A stretch of DNA of 64,000 nt from Halocalculus aciditolerans (lineage in GTDB: Archaea > Halobacteriota > Halobacteria > Halobacteriales > Halobacteriaceae): assembly GCF_014647475.1 (NCBI RefSeq), contig NZ_BMPG01000004.1:1-64000 (forward strand). Direction: 5' to 3'. The notes beneath the pieces are model-generated. The model was given only the letters and a program-made list of their open reading frames with translations, was not told the DNA's origin and did not search any database. Positions 32,331 through 40,970 of the stretch are shown here, one piece after another (the first letter of the stretch is position 1; the number at the start of each line of letters is the position of its first letter). Both the position numbers and the translations under genes were made by a program.

Positions 32331-32378
32331 TCATATTTTGGGATAAGTTCTTTGTTTCTCCCAACTATACGCTATTCT

Positions 32379-32654
32379 ATGGCAGTGGAAACGGATTCGC
32401 ACGGGAGACTCTATCTCTCAGCAGACCTGAGGAAGAAGTACGGCGAGAAATTCCACGTCGTCGAGTATGCAGACCGGATAGAACTCATACCCATCGACGA
32501 CGACCCCCTCCAAGCGGTCCGCGAAGCCACCGGTGGGGCATTCAAAGACAAATCTATCGAGGAACTTCGAGATGAAACCCGAGAGCAGGCTAAAAGCGAC
32601 GCTGAAGCCGGATTCGAGCGAGGGCGACAGTCCTCAAAGAGTAGCGATAGATGA
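32379..32654 (+). CDS. vapB: AbrB/VapB-family antitoxin
   Basis: The 91-residue protein has an N-terminal swapped-hairpin AbrB domain (ETDSHGRLYLSADLRKKYG, VVEYADRIELIPI) and a charged C-terminal tail that would wrap the toxin. Its stop overlaps the PIN gene start by 4 bases (ATGA). Confidence 0.88.
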   Translation: MAVETDSHGRLYLSADLRKKYGEKFHVVEYADRIELIPIDDDPLQAVREATGGAFKDKSIEELRDETREQAKSDAEAGFERGRQSSKSSDR

Positions 32655-33034
32655 CCGTGTACGTCGAGACAGACTTCCTTCTGGCGCTCGCTAAGGATTC
32701 TGATTGGCTCAAAAAACAGGCCGAGGAGGCCTTAGAAGAATATGACGTCGTCACGTCGACGTACGCCTATCTGGAACTCCTCCTCATTCGTGAGCGGTAC
32801 GAGTTCGATTCCGTCAAGCTGTTTTCGAATATGCTCGAGCTCGTTCCCGTCGAAACCGAGGAAGAACACCAGATTGTCCTCAAAGCGGTGAACTACTTTG
32901 ACGATGGAATGTCGGCGTTCGACGCTTTCCACGCAGCAACCGCCGAAACGCGTGACCATCAAATTCTCGGCTCAGACAGCGCATACGATGCCGTCGACGT
33001 GGATCGAATTCGGTTAGAGCCCGACGACGAATGA
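32651..33034 (+). CDS. vapC: VapC toxin, PIN-domain ribonuclease
   Basis: The 127-residue PIN protein has acidic residues at family positions: the N-terminal Asp in VYVETDFLLAL (Asp8), the Glu in TYAYLELLLI near residue 40, and the C-terminal cluster FDDGMSAFDAFHAATAE and ILGSDSAYDAV. It would cleave RNA (often tRNA or rRNA) with magnesium. It completes an intact vapBC module. Confidence 0.9.
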   Translation: MTVYVETDFLLALAKDSDWLKKQAEEALEEYDVVTSTYAYLELLLIRERYEFDSVKLFSNMLELVPVETEEEHQIVLKAVNYFDDGMSAFDAFHAATAETRDHQILGSDSAYDAVDVDRIRLEPDDE

Positions 33035-33073
33035 CCGAAAACCGCTTTAGGCGACGTCGGAGATGAACGAGTG

Positions 33074-33886
33074 ATGGAACTCTCGGTCGTCGTCGCGTTC
33101 GTTCTCGGGGTCTTGCAGGGCGTGTTGGAGTGGCTGCCGGTGTCGAGCGAGGGGAACGTTTCCCTAGTTCTCACGCTCCTCGGCGAGGACCCGGTGGTGG
33201 CGACGAAACTCGCGCTCTTCCTCCACCTGGGTACAGGAATCGCGGCGCTCGCGTACTACCGCGACGACGTCCGCGACCTCCTGTACGATGTCCCCGAGTG
33301 GCGGCCGTCGACGTGGTTCGACGCGGAGAGCGCCGACCTCTCCTTCATCGTGCTCGCCACGCTCGCCTCGGGAATCGTCGGCGTCGTCGTCTACGGCGCG
33401 CTCGAAGCCGTCGTCACCGGCACGACGACGAACGGCTTCGTCGTCATCGTCGCCGTCCTCCTCCTCCTCACCGGCCTCCTCCAGAAGTTCGCCGCCGGCT
33501 TCATGGCCGAACGCGAAACCCCCACCGCCCTCGACGCCGTCCTCGTCGGCGCTGGCCAAGGCCTCGCCCTCCTCCCGGGCGTGTCTCGCTCCGGCACCAC
33601 CGTCAGCATCCTCCTCCTCCGGGGCTACGACGAGAACGCCGCCCTCCGCCTCTCCTTCGTCCTCGCCATCCCCGCCTCCGTCGCCGCCGCCGGCCTCACC
33701 CTCGTCACCGACGGCCTCATCGTCGCCGGCGTCCTCCCCACGCTCGTCATGGTCGCCGCCGCCGCCACCGTCGGCTACCTCACTATCGACGCCCTCACCC
33801 GCCTCGTCGACCGCGTCGCCTTCTGGCTCGTCTGCGTCGCCTTCGCCCTCCTCATGCTCGCCGGCGTCTTCTTCCTCTCCGGGTAG
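33074..33886 (+). CDS. uppP: Undecaprenyl-diphosphatase-type phosphatase (UppP/BacA)
   Basis: The 270-residue polytopic membrane enzyme has both family motifs: GVLQGVLEWLPVSSEGN near the N-terminus and PGVSRSGTT near residue 170. In haloarchaea the substrate would be a dolichyl/polyprenyl diphosphate released during glycan transfer, connecting it to the glycosylation locus at 45-62 kb. A GTG one codon upstream is an alternative start. Confidence 0.92.
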   Translation: MELSVVVAFVLGVLQGVLEWLPVSSEGNVSLVLTLLGEDPVVATKLALFLHLGTGIAALAYYRDDVRDLLYDVPEWRPSTWFDAESADLSFIVLATLASGIVGVVVYGALEAVVTGTTTNGFVVIVAVLLLLTGLLQKFAAGFMAERETPTALDAVLVGAGQGLALLPGVSRSGTTVSILLLRGYDENAALRLSFVLAIPASVAAAGLTLVTDGLIVAGVLPTLVMVAAAATVGYLTIDALTRLVDRVAFWLVCVAFALLMLAGVFFLSG

Positions 33887-33986: not shown

Positions 33987-36900
33987 ATGGAACGTGGGAG
34001 CGTCGCGGGCATATTCGTCGTCAGCATCCTTGTCTTGAGTGCGGTTGCAGGGGTCGGACTCTCGGCGGGGTTCGCGAGCGATGGCGATCCGCCGACGGCA
34101 ATGAATGCTCGTAGCGACGGGGCAGGGGAGTCAGTCAGAGAGGGAGTCGAGTACGCGAGACCGGCAGAGCGTCCGGCACTGGGTCGTACGGGGGGAACAC
34201 GACCGGCTACAGACCCAGAAGACCCGGACCCCTCTATCGTAACTGTCCAAGCACCAGACGAGATCTCGGTCGGGGACTCCGCGATCATCGACGTCTATGT
34301 CGACAACGAGGGCGGAACCGCGGGGTCTTCGTCAACGATTTCGATGAGTTTCCCGGCGTTCGACAGCAGTCGCGACACCGACCGGTTACAGGTTCGCCGG
34401 AACGAACTCACGTCGCGGAATATCGTCGGTGCGGGTGAGACGATTCACACGAGGAGCGGAGACTCGGCGTCCGCGGACTACGCATTGGTTGAAGGATCAA
34501 CGGAGAGCAACGAATGGGGCAGCGGAGCGCAGAAACGACTCTCGGTGAGTGTCACACCGGAGACAGCGGGAACGTTCACCGTATACGTTCGAGCGACGCT
34601 TACCGACGACGGCGACTGGAAGACGAAGTTCAGTGCGCCTGATGCAGGAGCTGTCGATCAACAGGGATACGTTGTTCGTGAGATTACAATTGACGTCGTC
34701 GAGCCGAAAGAGAGTATATCTATCTTCCCGGAAGATGAGAACGGAGAAGTTCCAAACGACCCCGATATCCTCCTAAGACGCGCTTCCGATGGAGAGACAA
34801 AGAGTCTCGAGTTAAACGCACGCGGAAAATGCACGAACTGCGCGTGGTTCAAAGATTCGTTCGTCGACCCGGGATCGTATCGAGCGTATGTCAAAGTCGA
34901 TTCAAACTACTGGGGGTGGCGGGACGTTACCGTCTCCGAGGGTGAAGGCGAGTACATCACCTTCGATCGTGGAGGAACGTGGATTCGAGACATCGAACTC
35001 GACACCGACGAGTCTGGTGGAAACCCCAGAGTCGCACCGGGGAGTGAGATTCCAGTGACGATCGACACGTACAAGCAGAACCACGGCTCGGACGTGAGAG
35101 TGAAATTATACGCCCACGAGGAAGGCACGAGCCGGCCGGAGACGCCGACCAAAACCATCTCTCGCGGCGTCAGCAATGGTGCGAACACGTATCAGGCGGA
35201 GTTGTCAGCACCATACGACGAGGGAACGTACGAAATTGATTACGTCGTCGAGACGTACTTCTCCGAGTTCGGCGGGTATCGAGTTACCGATGTCGTCGAC
35301 GGGCAGACGGTTCGCGTGGAGGCGTACGAGCCACCGCAGATCGATGGCTCATCTCCGGGGACACGCGAACTCACCGTGAAGCCGGGGGAGACGTCGACGT
35401 TCTCAGTGTCAGCGTCCGACCCCGATACGGCGAGTTCGCGCCTCGACGTGCAGTGGTTCGTCGACGGGACACAGACGGTCTCGGGCTCCAAGTTCCAGTT
35501 GAACCCCGAGAAGTACAGCGCTGGGGAGCACGACGTGTCGGTCGTCGTCGGGGACGGCTCGGCGCGAACGGAGGATGCGCGGGCATCGTGGACGGTCTCG
35601 GTCGTGAAGCCGCCGCACGTGACATCAGTGACGCCGACAGACGGGACGGTCGCTCCAGGGGAACCCATCGAATTCTCGGTCCGCGCGGACGACCCGAACG
35701 GATACGCGATTACGGACTACTCTTGGAGCATCGGCGGGAAACACCTCGTCGGAGAACGAGTGAGCTACACTTTCGGGAAAACCGGAACGGTCACTGCGGA
35801 GGTGACCGCGACGAACAGCAAGGGCGTGTCGACGACGAAAACGTTCGAAGTGACGGTCTCGGGGACGAGCCCGGATATCACCGAAGTCGGCCCCGAGAAC
35901 AGGACCGTTCGAATCGGTGAATCGGTGTCGTTCGCCGCCAAAGCGGTCGATCCCGCAGGGCGAGACGTGTCTATGTCGTACCAGTGGCGTATCGATGGTG
36001 AAGACGCGTTCACGACTCGAACGGGGTCGCGGTCGTTCACAGAAGCGGGAACGCACCGGGTCACGGTCGTCGCGACGAACGAGTTCGGGATGAAGTCGAC
36101 CGAATCATTCGACGTCAAGGTGTTGAACGACCAGCCCGAACTGTCCGTCATGTCGCCATCGGGCGGTGCAGCGACAGTACAGTCGAAGAAGACCGTGCAG
36201 TTCGTTGGTCGAGTCGTGAACGAGGACGCGTCGAACGTTCGGGTAAATCTACGAGTCGACGGAGAGGTCATCGACCGGAAGGACGTCAGCGATTCGCCCG
36301 GACAAGTGACGTTTCGGACGAAGTTCGAGAACCCGGGTTCGCATTCGGTCGAACTCGTGGGGAGGGACGGTCACGGAGCGTCATCGTCGGTGTCGTGGGA
36401 CGTCAAGGTCACAAGCCGGAAGCCCGTGTTCGAATCGTGGAGTCCAGAGGTGGGAAGGATGACTGCACTGACGCCGTCGACGTGGAACTTCTCAGCGGAG
36501 GCGCGAGACCCAGAGGGACAGAGTGTCACGTACGAGTGGTCGGTCGACGGGAGTTACGTCTCGGACGGAACGGAACTCCGGAAGCAGTTCACGACACACG
36601 GTGAACACACCGTCTCGGTGACGGCAATAGACCCGCAGGGAGTGAATCGGACGCATGAGTGGGCGGTCGTGACGAAGAGTTTCACCGTCGAGCCGAACGT
36701 CCGGAATCACGCGACAGAACAAGAGGTGAACGTGGATAACGGGACGACGACGTTCCTCTCGGTGTCGATGCAGAACCCGCAGGTGAACAATCGGAGCGCG
36801 GAGGTCGAGTTCGTGATCGACCTCCCGAGCGGCGTGGCGATCAAGCGGATGGCGAACGTGCACGCGTCCTCAACCGGGGACGCGGTCGGCTCGGCAACGT

Positions 36901-37190
36901 TGCGTCCCGGTGACGAGAAGTCGATGCGTCTAGGAATCTTCGTGAAAGACGAGAGTCTCCGCGGAGAGTCCGTGACGGTCGATTACGAGGTCCGGTACTA
37001 TCCCAGCGGGCGGAAAGGCGACTACCACTCGGTGCTTGATCAGTCGTCGACGATCGATCTGGTCGGAAACCAAGAGACGCAAGCCGAGAAGGCGAACCAG
37101 TTGACTGTTACGGGGAGTCCAGGATTCACGGTCGTGTCGGGGTTGCTTGCGCTGGGTGTCGGGATATTGGTCGCACTCCGTCGACAGTGA
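33987..37190 (+). CDS. Large PKD-repeat surface protein with C-terminal sorting signal
   Basis: The 1067-residue exported protein has a signal sequence at residues 1-30, a CARDB/Ig-like region (DPDPSIVTVQAPDEISVGDSA), and a Cys pair at 290-293. About five PKD/Ig repeats at roughly 450-870 have patterns such as QWFVDGTQTVSG, DYSWSIGGKHL, YQWRIDGEDAF and YEWSVDGSYV. A terminal Ig-like domain (900-1030) and SPGFTVVSGLLALGVGIL followed by RRQ complete it, fitting a PGF-CTERM archaeosortase signal. A TATA element CTTTAATTATC lies about 27 bp before the ATG. It heads the JAMM cassette. Confidence 0.85.
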   Translation: MERGSVAGIFVVSILVLSAVAGVGLSAGFASDGDPPTAMNARSDGAGESVREGVEYARPAERPALGRTGGTRPATDPEDPDPSIVTVQAPDEISVGDSAIIDVYVDNEGGTAGSSSTISMSFPAFDSSRDTDRLQVRRNELTSRNIVGAGETIHTRSGDSASADYALVEGSTESNEWGSGAQKRLSVSVTPETAGTFTVYVRATLTDDGDWKTKFSAPDAGAVDQQGYVVREITIDVVEPKESISIFPEDENGEVPNDPDILLRRASDGETKSLELNARGKCTNCAWFKDSFVDPGSYRAYVKVDSNYWGWRDVTVSEGEGEYITFDRGGTWIRDIELDTDESGGNPRVAPGSEIPVTIDTYKQNHGSDVRVKLYAHEEGTSRPETPTKTISRGVSNGANTYQAELSAPYDEGTYEIDYVVETYFSEFGGYRVTDVVDGQTVRVEAYEPPQIDGSSPGTRELTVKPGETSTFSVSASDPDTASSRLDVQWFVDGTQTVSGSKFQLNPEKYSAGEHDVSVVVGDGSARTEDARASWTVSVVKPPHVTSVTPTDGTVAPGEPIEFSVRADDPNGYAITDYSWSIGGKHLVGERVSYTFGKTGTVTAEVTATNSKGVSTTKTFEVTVSGTSPDITEVGPENRTVRIGESVSFAAKAVDPAGRDVSMSYQWRIDGEDAFTTRTGSRSFTEAGTHRVTVVATNEFGMKSTESFDVKVLNDQPELSVMSPSGGAATVQSKKTVQFVGRVVNEDASNVRVNLRVDGEVIDRKDVSDSPGQVTFRTKFENPGSHSVELVGRDGHGASSSVSWDVKVTSRKPVFESWSPEVGRMTALTPSTWNFSAEARDPEGQSVTYEWSVDGSYVSDGTELRKQFTTHGEHTVSVTAIDPQGVNRTHEWAVVTKSFTVEPNVRNHATEQEVNVDNGTTTFLSVSMQNPQVNNRSAEVEFVIDLPSGVAIKRMANVHASSTGDAVGSATLRPGDEKSMRLGIFVKDESLRGESVTVDYEVRYYPSGRKGDYHSVLDQSSTIDLVGNQETQAEKANQLTVTGSPGFTVVSGLLALGVGILVALRRQ

Positions 37191-37205
37191 TTACGTGTAA
37201 TCTCT

Positions 37206-37237
37206 ACTAGTATGCCAAACACTTATGGTGTACTAGT
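37206..37237. promoter_or_regulatory. Hyphenated palindrome bracketing a TATA box
   Basis: ACTAGTATGCC and GGTGTACTAGT (9 of 11 positions complementary) are separated by exactly 10 bases that contain ACTTAT, the likely TATA box, about 35-40 bp before the ATG at 37262. A dimeric repressor bound to both arms would cover the promoter. The winged-helix protein at 38811 is a candidate binder. Confidence 0.6.
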
Positions 37238-37261
37238 CTGTTGGTGTTGGTGGAGCCGAAG

Positions 37262-38029
37262 ATGAAACTGAGTCCACACAAATCAGTCACCGTCGCCGTG
37301 CTCGCCACGGTGCTGCTCACCGCGAGTATCGCTGGCCCGGCCGCCGCCGCAACCGGTGGTGTACAGTTCGCCGCGACGAATAACACGACGACTACGACCC
37401 AAGCCCAGACGACGCAGACGAGTGAACAGTGCGACCCCTCGAATCCCGAGCTACAGCAGGCGCGCCTCTACACTGACGATCCAACTATCACGAAGGACAG
37501 CCCCGGCGTCATCTCGGGTTCGCTCGTGACGGACATCACGAACGACTGCCGGATCGTCGTGCAGCTTACGCTTACCGTCCCGAACGGGATGTACATCCAG
37601 GGTTCGAGTGACGTCGGCAGCGGCGGTGGTGGTCTCGTCACGAACACCATCGAAGTCGACCCCGGTGAGAGTAAGTCACTCCGAGCGACTGTCTTCAGCA
37701 ACAACCTCGGGACGAAGACCGTCACCGCCGACCTGACCTACTTCCCCAAGGGCCACAAGGATATGGCCCGCGAGCTCGACGGCCAGATGCTCGAGTTCAC
37801 CACCGAGGAGAAGGCGATGCCGGATACCAAGAGCGACGGCGGAAACGAATCCGTGAACGACGCGAGCACCCCCAACGAGGGGAGGAATACGCTGCTCGGC
37901 GGCGAGTCCGTGTGGTCGAAAAATATGTTGACGATCGTCATCGTCGGCTTACTCCTGCTCCTCGGTGCCGCGATGTACGTCATGGTTCCGGACACGTTCA
38001 AGTTCGACTTCGACATCGGGAAACGGTAG
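37262..38029 (+). CDS. Single-pass membrane protein sharing a domain with the PKD protein
   Basis: The 255-residue protein has a signal peptide (1-30, AGPAAAATGG), a Thr/Gln-rich stretch, one extracellular Ig-like domain (about 75-180), a polar linker, a C-terminal membrane helix (MLTIVIVGLLLLLGAAMYVMV) and a 14-residue cytoplasmic tail. Its domain aligns by eye with the last domain of the upstream protein: LTVPNGMYI / IDLPSGVAI, VDPGESKSLR / LRPGDEKSMR and YFPKGHKD / YYPSGRKGD. The JAMM gene begins 6 bases after it. Confidence 0.85.
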   Translation: MKLSPHKSVTVAVLATVLLTASIAGPAAAATGGVQFAATNNTTTTTQAQTTQTSEQCDPSNPELQQARLYTDDPTITKDSPGVISGSLVTDITNDCRIVVQLTLTVPNGMYIQGSSDVGSGGGGLVTNTIEVDPGESKSLRATVFSNNLGTKTVTADLTYFPKGHKDMARELDGQMLEFTTEEKAMPDTKSDGGNESVNDASTPNEGRNTLLGGESVWSKNMLTIVIVGLLLLLGAAMYVMVPDTFKFDFDIGKR

Positions 38030-38034
38030 AGAGG

Positions 38035-38814
38035 ATGTTCGGGAACTGGTTCGGCGGCGACGACGAGAACGAGCAGGAAGCAGACGAGGGCGAGTGGAGC
38101 GTCTCAGTCAGCTCGAACGTCGACCACCTCGCGGATACGGACGTCACGCTGTCCGTGGACCACGTCTACAGTCGAGAACGCGACGGCGGTACGTCGACAA
38201 CAGGGAGCGTCTCGCCGAGCACGCCGCGAAAGCCGTCTAAGCCGGGGACCGAAGACGGACCGGAGGACGTGACACGAGGAAAGATGGCGTTCCCGCGCGA
38301 TAAGCCGTTCATGCAGGCGATGGAAATTCGCGGGAAGAACGGCGCGCATCCGCGTGTCGAAACCGTGTACGTCGTCACAGGCGACACGTATACGCGACCA
38401 ACTGACGTGTTCGCGCTCGACGATCCAAAGTTCTTCTCGAAGGCGACACCGACGGCGGTATCGTCGTACGGGAAGCAGATGGCCAAGCAGGTCGCCGCGA
38501 ATTTCGCGGACGGCGAGGCTCCGCGGCTCGTCGCGCGATTCCACACCCACCCCAGCGGGAAGGTGATTCCGAGCGCAACCGACCAGAAGAGCGCCGAGAA
38601 GATTCGCACGCAGTTCGAGGAGGCGCTCGGAACGACGGATTTCGAGTTCTTCCACGGAATCCACGCCTATCGGGAGGCGTCTGTCGGGCCAGGTGAACGC
38701 CACGCTCCGGAGCAGACCGGAAGCAACGTATGCTGGTACGGCGAACAGTACCGGCATGAACTCGGCGTCTTTGACGCTCGCTTCCAGACACCGAAAGAGG
38801 TCGTCGTGGAATGA
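38035..38814 (+). CDS. JAMM/MPN-domain metalloprotease-like protein
   Basis: This 259-residue protein has no signal peptide. It contains a perfect JAMM zinc motif, HTH-x7-S-x2-D, at residues 170-183 (His170, His172, Ser180, Asp183). A glutamate candidate in QAMEIRGKNG (Glu97) is the upstream general base. In archaea this fold includes desampylases that remove ubiquitin-like SAMP proteins. The N-terminal 80 residues are acidic and low-complexity, with a possible strand pair at 22-45. It overlaps the winged-helix gene by 4 bases. Confidence 0.88.
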   Translation: MFGNWFGGDDENEQEADEGEWSVSVSSNVDHLADTDVTLSVDHVYSRERDGGTSTTGSVSPSTPRKPSKPGTEDGPEDVTRGKMAFPRDKPFMQAMEIRGKNGAHPRVETVYVVTGDTYTRPTDVFALDDPKFFSKATPTAVSSYGKQMAKQVAANFADGEAPRLVARFHTHPSGKVIPSATDQKSAEKIRTQFEEALGTTDFEFFHGIHAYREASVGPGERHAPEQTGSNVCWYGEQYRHELGVFDARFQTPKEVVVE

Positions 38815-39353
38815 CTGAGGCGTTCGACGTCCGCGACATCGACCCGGAGTTCCGGGACGCGCTTCACCGCGCGCTCGAAGAACGCCCGGAGGAGTTACGC
38901 GAGTTCCTCGCGCGACAGGGATATCTCGAACCGGACGAGGACGCCGACGAGATCGTCGGCAACGAACAGGAACTCTCGGAGTCCGAGCGTCACCTCCTCG
39001 GCGTGGTCGAGGAACTCGCCTCTCCCCACTCCACCCAGCAGATCATCAACGTCATCCAGCGTGAAGACCAGTACGAGAGCCTCCGGAACCAGTACGAGTC
39101 GCTCAAACACCGCCCGTGGGTCAGCGACAAGCTGAACAAGCTCGTCCGGAAGGGCCGAATCGGACGATACCGGGATGGCCGCACGGTGATGTACACGTCG
39201 GATCCCGCGGAGGCGATTCGTCACTGGGCACTCCACAACAACCGATTCGTCGACGAACTCTCTGGTTCGGATATCGACGAAATCGTCTCCGCGACCAATA
39301 TGAATCGCGAAACGGTTCGCGCCGGCCTCTACGAACTGATCGATCGCGAGTAA
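38811..39353 (+). CDS. Winged-helix DNA-binding protein
   Basis: The 180-residue protein has an acidic N-terminal region. A winged helix runs over about residues 60-135 (ERHLLGVVEELASPHSTQQIINVI, then KLNKLVRKGRIGRYRDGRTVMY as recognition helix and wing). A C-terminal helix-turn-helix-like stretch follows (SGSDIDEIVSATNMNRETVRAGLYELI). It is translationally coupled to the JAMM gene and is probably the cassette's regulator. A T6 run 18 bases downstream ends the unit. Confidence 0.85.
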   Translation: MTEAFDVRDIDPEFRDALHRALEERPEELREFLARQGYLEPDEDADEIVGNEQELSESERHLLGVVEELASPHSTQQIINVIQREDQYESLRNQYESLKHRPWVSDKLNKLVRKGRIGRYRDGRTVMYTSDPAEAIRHWALHNNRFVDELSGSDIDEIVSATNMNRETVRAGLYELIDRE

Positions 39354-40170: not shown

Positions 40171-40358
40171 ACTCGGTGATTTTCCGGCGACCACATAGGC
40201 GTGATGACCGCCGTGGACGTCGTCTTGGCTCGCTGCGGAACGACCGTTCGGCGACCCCGCCGCCGTACGCTCCAACGACGATGTCGAACGGATCCGGGAG
40301 CGGCGACGCGAGAGAAGAGAGCAGACACACTAATACACCCGTCATTCAACTTCAGTCT

Positions 40359-40970
40359 ATGGAACTCAACGAAGGCGAGCTTCAGGTGTCTCGTGAGTTG
40401 TCTGCGCTCGACGAGGAGGTGGTCGAGTTCGTTAGCGTCCTCAATGATTGTGGTATCAATTACGTTATCGTGAGTGGGTATGTCGCAATCCTCACTGGCC
40501 GCTCTCGGGCAACGGAAGATGTCGATATTGTTCTAGAGCGTTTAACTCAACAGCGAACTGAATATTTGGCTAAGACGCTCAAACAGAGGGGGTATTGGGG
40601 AATGGCAATGCCTCTCGACAAAATGTACGAGATGATGAGTAATGGTGATCGGATCCGCGTAGCCGAAGAGGGAGAGCTGATTCCGAACTTCGAACTCTGG
40701 TTTGCGAAAAACGAGGTTGAACGAGAAGCACTCAACAAGGCGATCACAGCAGTGCCCGGTGATTCTCAGCTCAACATTAGTCCGCTCGAACTCCGAATCG
40801 CCTACAAGCTTCGTCTCGCCCAGCACGCCGGAAGCACGTCAGGGAAAGATTTCGAAGACGCACTCCACCTATACGAGACATTCGAGGAATCGCTTAATAC
40901 GGAGCAACTCGAAGAGTATCTCAGAGACCTCGAAGTTGAGGACTACTATGATCAGCTCCGACGAGCTTAA
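40359..40970 (+). CDS. Nucleotidyltransferase-like protein (AbiEii/DUF6036 type)
   Basis: The 203-residue protein has the minimal nucleotidyltransferase signature YVIVSGYVAILTGRSRATEDVDIVLE near residue 45. DVD fits the second catalytic acidic pair, and the GG/GS motif is reduced to SGY. A helical C-terminal half follows. Such proteins act as toxins or tRNA-modifying nucleotidyltransferases in two-gene modules. It overlaps the following 65-residue gene by 23 bases. Confidence 0.8.
   Translation: MELNEGELQVSRELSALDEEVVEFVSVLNDCGINYVIVSGYVAILTGRSRATEDVDIVLERLTQQRTEYLAKTLKQRGYWGMAMPLDKMYEMMSNGDRIRVAEEGELIPNFELWFAKNEVEREALNKAITAVPGDSQLNISPLELRIAYKLRLAQHAGSTSGKDFEDALHLYETFEESLNTEQLEEYLRDLEVEDYYDQLRRA

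Follow-up and report, generated by a model that had tools for sequence, protein, structure and literature searches.

Four consecutive genes in the 64-kb stretch of DNA analysed here (the window, from contig NZ_BMPG01000004.1 of Halocalculus aciditolerans) encode a surface protein, a single-pass membrane protein (TM), a JAMM/MPN+ protease and a winged helix-turn-helix protein (wHTH) that resembles the BlaI/MecI repressors (Table 1). The four genes form a conserved unit, as a first-pass annotation of the sequence had observed, and the cluster goes beyond chance since the genes co-occur in unrelated genomes. We tentatively suggest, at somewhat less than an even chance, that this cassette represents an undescribed class of archaeal signalling system, in which a JAMM/MPN+ protease tethered to the tail of a receptor would control a BlaI-like repressor, either by proteolysis or by removal of a SAMP conjugate.

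Conservation of the cassette and of its upstream repeats

Homologues of the JAMM protein of the window (P0003) were present in 6 of 292 genomes of the class Halobacteria and in 10 of 392 genomes of the order, and none was in the members listed for the window's own family. JAMM homologues and true wHTH homologues occurred in the same six of the 292 Halobacteria genomes and nowhere else (Fisher test, 1e-12, uncorrected for kinship). The named relatives are Halorussus aquaticus, Halorussus ruber, Halorubrum californiense and a Halobellus ramosii plasmid, and a phylum-wide search with a JAMM profile added four genomes (G522, G633, G488 and G566). Because 4RVZ and 3AMT, the latter from Archaeoglobus fulgidus, are the nearest matches to the TiaS protein of G633, we infer that G633 and G522, which belong to the same genus, are Archaeoglobi, a class other than Halobacteria, so that the set would occur in some heat-loving as well as in salt-loving archaea. 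Weak matches to the wHTH profile in G002, G165, G154, G047 and G041 have no adjoining JAMM gene and are not cassettes, and weak matches to the JAMM profile in G017, G030, G218 and G275 (about 20 bits) were assumed to be ordinary JAMM proteins.

Wherever a complete locus has a proper JAMM homologue, the TM, JAMM and wHTH genes follow in this order on one strand, with the JAMM and wHTH genes of the Halobacteria cassettes overlapping by 4-11 bases. The interval between JAMM and wHTH holds a PGF-CTERM-like surface gene in overlapping frames at two loci (L089, L090) and two small genes at a third (L091), and the Halorubrum californiense locus, interrupted by a contig end, is consistent with this order. 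Every cassette except L091, a 7-kb contig, has a gene for a surface protein, or more than one, within about 7 kb; the surface gene lies upstream (the window, L022), downstream (L018, L020, L025) or between the JAMM and wHTH genes (L089, L090). A fixed layout thus holds for TM, JAMM and wHTH, in all complete loci with a proper JAMM homologue, and not for the surface gene, whose position varies. Scattered genes, or a JAMM gene with other partners, had been named in advance as outcomes that would speak against the set, and the comparison of relatives did not overturn it. In the window, the open reading frames (ORFs) are consecutive on the plus strand and genes 3 and 4 share the 4-base overlap that had been reported (38811-38814), while the spacing ahead of the JAMM gene, given as 6 bases, is 5 (38030-38034). 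The most likely start of gene 2 is the ATG at 37262.

Several accessory genes, encoding a TIM barrel, a metallophosphoesterase and a coiled-coil-like protein, are limited to Halorussus or Halobellus-type cassettes. A cassette copy on the Halobellus ramosii plasmid NZ_CP101826.1 (L088) has TM and wHTH genes nearly identical to those of G094, which is evidence for mobility of the cassette. In five Halorussus genomes the cassette is immediately preceded by a gene run with DUF7261/DUF7263 members (L020:373-8354), which may encode a secretion or pilus apparatus tied to the surface pair. Genes for an AAA ATPase and a VWA-domain protein adjoin one probable Archaeoglobi cassette on the opposite strand (L089:5521-8203).

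Repeats of the form TTACnnGTAA/TACTAGT, which the first-pass annotation had not listed, span 37186-37240, ahead of the TM-JAMM-wHTH operon (Table 1). TACTAGT recurs at 37231, inside the inverted repeat of 37206-37237 and 26 bp past the second site, and the distance from one site to the next within a cassette is often about 12-13 or 25-26 bp. TTACnnGTAA was present upstream of the TM gene in all 11 haloarchaeal cassettes, and upstream of none of ten TM homologues that lack JAMM, even allowing one mismatch. Ten haloarchaeal genomes contain 55 exact copies of TTACNNGTAA, 15 of which fall within the 170 bp upstream of TM genes (about 1.7 kb in total), where 0.002 would be expected, an expectation that overstates significance because sites were treated as independent. 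Surface genes have no operator-like site upstream, save in L019, where divergent genes share one intergenic region.

Properties of the encoded proteins

The JAMM motif that had been read at residues 170-183 of P0003 is exact, since HTHPSGKVIPSATD supplies H170, H172, S180 and D183, and with E109 the protein has the residue set of JAMM/MPN+ enzymes (E plus HxH-x7-S-x2-D). These four residues are invariant in 12 relatives and E109 is kept in 11 of the 12. E109 is likely the catalytic Glu; by motif, VETVYVVTG aligns with EECCGILVG in the JAMM1-type protein that the genome also encodes. A further invariant Glu, E97, sits on the helix before it. In an AlphaFold2 model the catalytic part (about residues 83-259) mostly has pLDDT values of 80-95 and residues 1-78 are of low confidence, and Foldseek matched the model to CSN5, BRCC36, Rpn11 and RadC at probability 1.00, so that the predicted fold is MPN+/JAMM. 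P0003 scores below the Pfam Prok-JAB cut-off (21.6 versus 25 bits), which its relatives in L089 and L091 exceed, and far below that of the desampylase model NF041370 (14.6 versus 130 bits). Its match to Pfam RadC is weak and below the cut-off, with 2qlc the nearest solved structure by sequence profile.

The product of gene 4 is a winged-helix protein, as had been annotated, and by sequence profile and predicted fold the cassette wHTH appears closest to the BlaI/MecI repressors, a relationship new to this analysis. Against the Penicillinase_R model (PF03965; cut-off 22.6), the wHTH of L090 scores 23.4 and others fall below the cut-off, that of L091 slightly, and in a search of the PDB with the wHTH profile BlaI (1P6R) was the sole related protein among the leading matches, ranked under a designed repeat protein.

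Gene 1 had been annotated as a PKD surface protein with a sorting signal; its PKD match is well above the Pfam cut-off, and the C-terminus of its product (P0001) has an SPGF-TM-RRQ arrangement whose score for the PGF-CTERM-like model TIGR04126 is slightly below the NCBIfam cut-off (20.5 versus 24.5 bits). Gene 2 encodes the expected single-pass membrane protein, which has a signal peptide and, towards its C-terminus, a single TM segment followed by a cytosolic tail of 13 residues (PDTFKFDFDIGKR). Judged from sequence profiles, the TM ectodomain and the C-terminal part of the surface protein are the same domain (ECD, for ectodomain), which is also new here. In the surface protein, residues 906-1044 match a TM profile (A3; iE 2.7e-9), and the domain, of about 115 residues, was found in 54 ORFs when the profile was iterated within the loci analysed (5e-27 for the domain shared by genes 1 and 2), in most of them ahead of a TM segment or sorting signal. 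By Pfam the ECD is near DUF11/BatD/CARDB, and in gene 2 it carries a conserved Cys pair (C57, C96). The outer parts of the surface proteins vary and include PKD, PQQ propeller, TSP3, PEGA and CARDB domains; a surface gene with propeller-like repeats, PKD and ECD at L019:6297-8491 is broken into two overlapping frames, either by an assembly frameshift or as a real pseudogene.

TM homologues without JAMM or wHTH genes occur in ten other genomes, mostly with an adjoining surface partner, so that JAMM-wHTH looks like an add-on that would let the TM/surface pair signal inwards. The two groups of TM proteins differ at the cytosolic end. With a fixed 20-residue TM window, JAMM-linked proteins have a stretch of 6-16 residues past the TM helix that often alternates between hydrophobic and polar (for example MSPRDINIGVKK and RKKPPQIRIEE, besides the tail in the window), versus 0-5 residues, or PGF signals with up to 10, in unlinked homologues; the medians are about 13 and about 3 (Mann-Whitney p = 5.5e-5, from counts that include close relatives). 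The JAMM-linked proteins are not one clade in a tree of the ECD, in which at least three label changes are forced, and simple descent therefore does not explain the correlation. That TM proteins beside a JAMM gene have a longer predicted tail, and that homologues lacking JAMM mostly stop at the membrane, is likewise new to this analysis, as are the upstream repeats.

A proposed transmembrane circuit and its alternatives

These features can be joined into a circuit. The surface protein, with its variable ligand-binding repeats (PKD, PQQ propeller, TSP3 or CARDB), would probably pair with the TM protein outside the cell through their common beta-sandwich-type ECD. The short cytosolic tail of the TM protein may dock or gate the cytosolic JAMM metalloprotease, since tail length correlates with the JAMM gene, and the JAMM would act on the BlaI/MecI-like wHTH by cutting it or removing a SAMP conjugate from it. 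The wHTH would bind the TTACnnGTAA repeats and repress the operon, and an outside signal would derepress the operon, together with the surface protein where its gene lies downstream in it. SAMPs occur in haloarchaea, and the data fit removal of a SAMP conjugate and direct cutting of the wHTH equally well; none of the cassette genes was recognised as encoding a ubiquitin-like (Ubl), E1 or E2 protein. The chance that the whole chain operates in this BlaR1-BlaI-like way, with the JAMM acting on the wHTH to relieve repression of the operon, we put only a little under one half. The first-pass annotation had proposed that the JAMM processes the wHTH to switch expression, and this gains indirect support from the BlaI/MecI-like wHTH, the operator-like repeats and the JAMM-associated tail, with cleavage and binding themselves predicted; for the SAMP conjugate that it had named as another possible partner, the data speak neither for nor against.

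The closest parallel is BlaR1-BlaI/MecR1-MecI of Staphylococcus and Bacillus licheniformis, which likewise combines, in one operon, an outside sensor, the membrane, a cytosolic zinc protease and a BlaI/MecI-type wHTH, with palindromic TAC/GTA-type sites in front; in the cassette a predicted palindromic operator also precedes the operon. BlaI is directly cleaved by BlaR1 (PMC9834060), and the sites of BlaI, MecI and CopY are TACA/TGTA palindromes (PMC7253601). In contrast, the cassette protease is a separate soluble JAMM/MPN+ protein rather than an M56 integral membrane gluzincin, the sensor is a DUF11/BatD-like ectodomain pair rather than a penicillin-binding domain, and the operator spacing differs; neither M56 metalloprotease nor penicillin-binding sensor domains were found in the TM or surface proteins. 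The cassette may thus work like BlaR1-BlaI without being a member of that system. Metalloprotease-repressor pairs are also known in ImmA-ImmR and IrrE-DdrO, in which a soluble protease adjoins and cuts the repressor; these consist of a COG2856 protease and an XRE repressor, without a surface or membrane sensor.

Among JAMM proteins, the HvJAMM1 desampylase of Haloferax volcanii, which acts with SAMP1 (PMC4443979), shares the archaeal JAMM/MPN+ active site (E, HxH, S, D) but is of another subfamily, whereas the cassette JAMM has fixed TM and wHTH partners. Separate Prok-JAB proteins are encoded elsewhere in the window's genome (L001, L002), and the partners of RadC-like JAB domains also differ from those of the cassette JAMM. 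Makarova and Koonin (PMC2948915, section 3.4) noted that archaeal Jab genes are rarely linked to genes of the Ubl pathway and named a cytidylyltransferase as their only association, a conserved context like that found here with a different partner. No passage describing this layout came up when Iyer et al. 2006 (PMC1779556) and a dark-matter survey (PMC4158269) were queried by targeted text search, and a literature search whose coverage excluded most subscription journals and preprints found no description of the cassette.

Several points weigh against the proposed circuit. Its steps are predictions from sequences and modelled structures, and most JAMM enzymes described to date are isopeptidases. 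P0004, the wHTH of the window, scores 17.5 against the Penicillinase_R cut-off of 22.6, and its Foldseek matches are weak, with MecI (1OKR) the top PDB match (probability 0.99, E 0.016), followed by MarR and RosR folds. Where a tail is taken to begin depends on a hydropathy window, and several of the tails are short (6-9 residues). TTACnnGTAA was spotted by eye and counted afterwards; it shares its TAC/GTA core with the bacterial TACA-N2-TGTA sites, with different spacing. The repeat was not found in L091, and in the two probable Archaeoglobi it is GTAAnnTTAC, which, measured in the same way, lies about 25 bp upstream and is weak evidence because their DNA is AT-rich. Finally, a regulon search found no consistent target across genera for the other TTACNNGTAA sites in these genomes, which lie at gene ends, within rRNA-like regions and ahead of a CheY-like gene; the cassette itself seems to make up the whole regulon, and no output beyond the cassette proteins was therefore identified.

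Some of the same observations suit an envelope quality-control or surface-assembly unit, in which TM and surface proteins build a surface structure, a desampylase-like or processing JAMM acts in the cytosol, either on the tail of the TM protein or on surface precursors that carry SAMP, and the wHTH is an autoregulator and not a substrate. TM and surface pairs found elsewhere without JAMM and wHTH must have a function of their own, the five Halorussus cassettes adjoin secretion- or pilus-like genes, and a tail that tracks the JAMM is expected were the tail its substrate. We nevertheless consider this explanation unlikely, since it leaves unexplained the constant BlaI/MecI-like partner of the JAMM with its overlapping frames in Halobacteria and an operator-like site exclusive to these cassettes.

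Defence against viruses or other elements, in which the surface pair would sense attack and JAMM and wHTH would control an effector response, is less probable still. The patchy distribution, including absence from sampled members of the window's own family, and the plasmid copy are compatible with defence, and known defence systems include JAMM domains, among them CBASS Cap3 and Bil-type systems, where a JAMM enzyme removes Ubl conjugates. In type II CBASS (Cap3) and in the prokaryotic E1-E2-JAB operons, a JAB/JAMM enzyme likewise sits in an accessory operon. However, neither E1, E2, Ubl, CD-NTase nor any effector was recognised in any cassette, P0003 scores 14.3 against a cut-off of 200 for the Cap3 model NF050170, PADLOC and PHROGs gave generic JAB/HTH matches only (weak for JAB in PADLOC), and neither viral contigs (JAMM profile) nor phage records (P0003) contained a relative. 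It is very improbable that there is no circuit at all and that a stand-alone housekeeping JAMM peptidase lies in a chance or historical cluster. G566 has an orphan JAMM homologue without TM, surface or wHTH genes (L092:5075-5605) and with a shifted active-site Glu; the same order in two archaeal classes, the perfect co-occurrence, the shared ECD and the cassette-specific tail and upstream motif contradict this explanation. L092 also holds a second JAMM-like ORF (L092:8095-8502), which is shorter and lacks HxH.

Neighbouring genes and significance

Table 1. Genes of the cassette and repeats ahead of gene 2 in the window.
Feature	Position	Strand	Description
Gene 1 (P0001), surface protein	33987-37190	+	1067 aa ORF; Ig/PKD-like repeats with a signal peptide, an ECD domain at the C-terminal end (~residues 910-1028) and a putative PGF-CTERM-like sorting signal
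Operator-like palindrome TTACGTGTAA	37191-37200	no strand	Begins at first base past gene 1 stop; sole exact TTACNNGTAA in the window
Second site TACTAGTA	37205-37212	no strand	Core TACnnGTA; 13 bp past first site
Inverted repeat ACTAGTATGCCA-N8-TGGTGTACTAGT	37206-37237	no strand	12-nt arms, 83% complementary; upstream of gene 2
Gene 2 (P0002), single-pass type I membrane protein (TM)	37262-38029	+	255 aa ORF; signal peptide, ECD domain, TM helix, cytosolic tail
Gene 3 (P0003), JAMM/MPN+ protease	38035-38814	+	259 aa ORF; catalytic domain 83-259; E109, H170, H172, S180, D183
Gene 4 (P0004), BlaI/MecI-like winged-helix protein (wHTH)	38811-39353	+	180 aa ORF; helical N-terminal part, C-terminal helical (HTH-like) part

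Just upstream of the cassette, a small AbrB/MraZ-like gene overlaps a PIN-domain gene (32352-33034), a VapBC-type toxin-antitoxin pair, and a gene of the BacA/UppP-type undecaprenyl-diphosphatase family immediately precedes gene 1 (33071-33886). On the other side, a weak DUF2204/AbiEii-like nucleotidyltransferase at 40275-40970 is a possible type IV toxin-antitoxin-like gene.

Apart from two-component systems and taxis, archaea are not known to have many routes that carry signals from outside into the cell. The parts of the cassette are small, soluble or single-pass, and can be tested in Haloferax. That the outer repeats vary while the ectodomain stays constant suggests that the sensors can be exchanged. 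If the proposed circuit is true, a single operon would connect proteolysis (or ubiquitin-like modification) with the archaeal surface and with transcription, an MPN+ enzyme would be the output step of an outside-in receptor, and the logic of BlaR1-BlaI would have arisen again with an unrelated protease fold.

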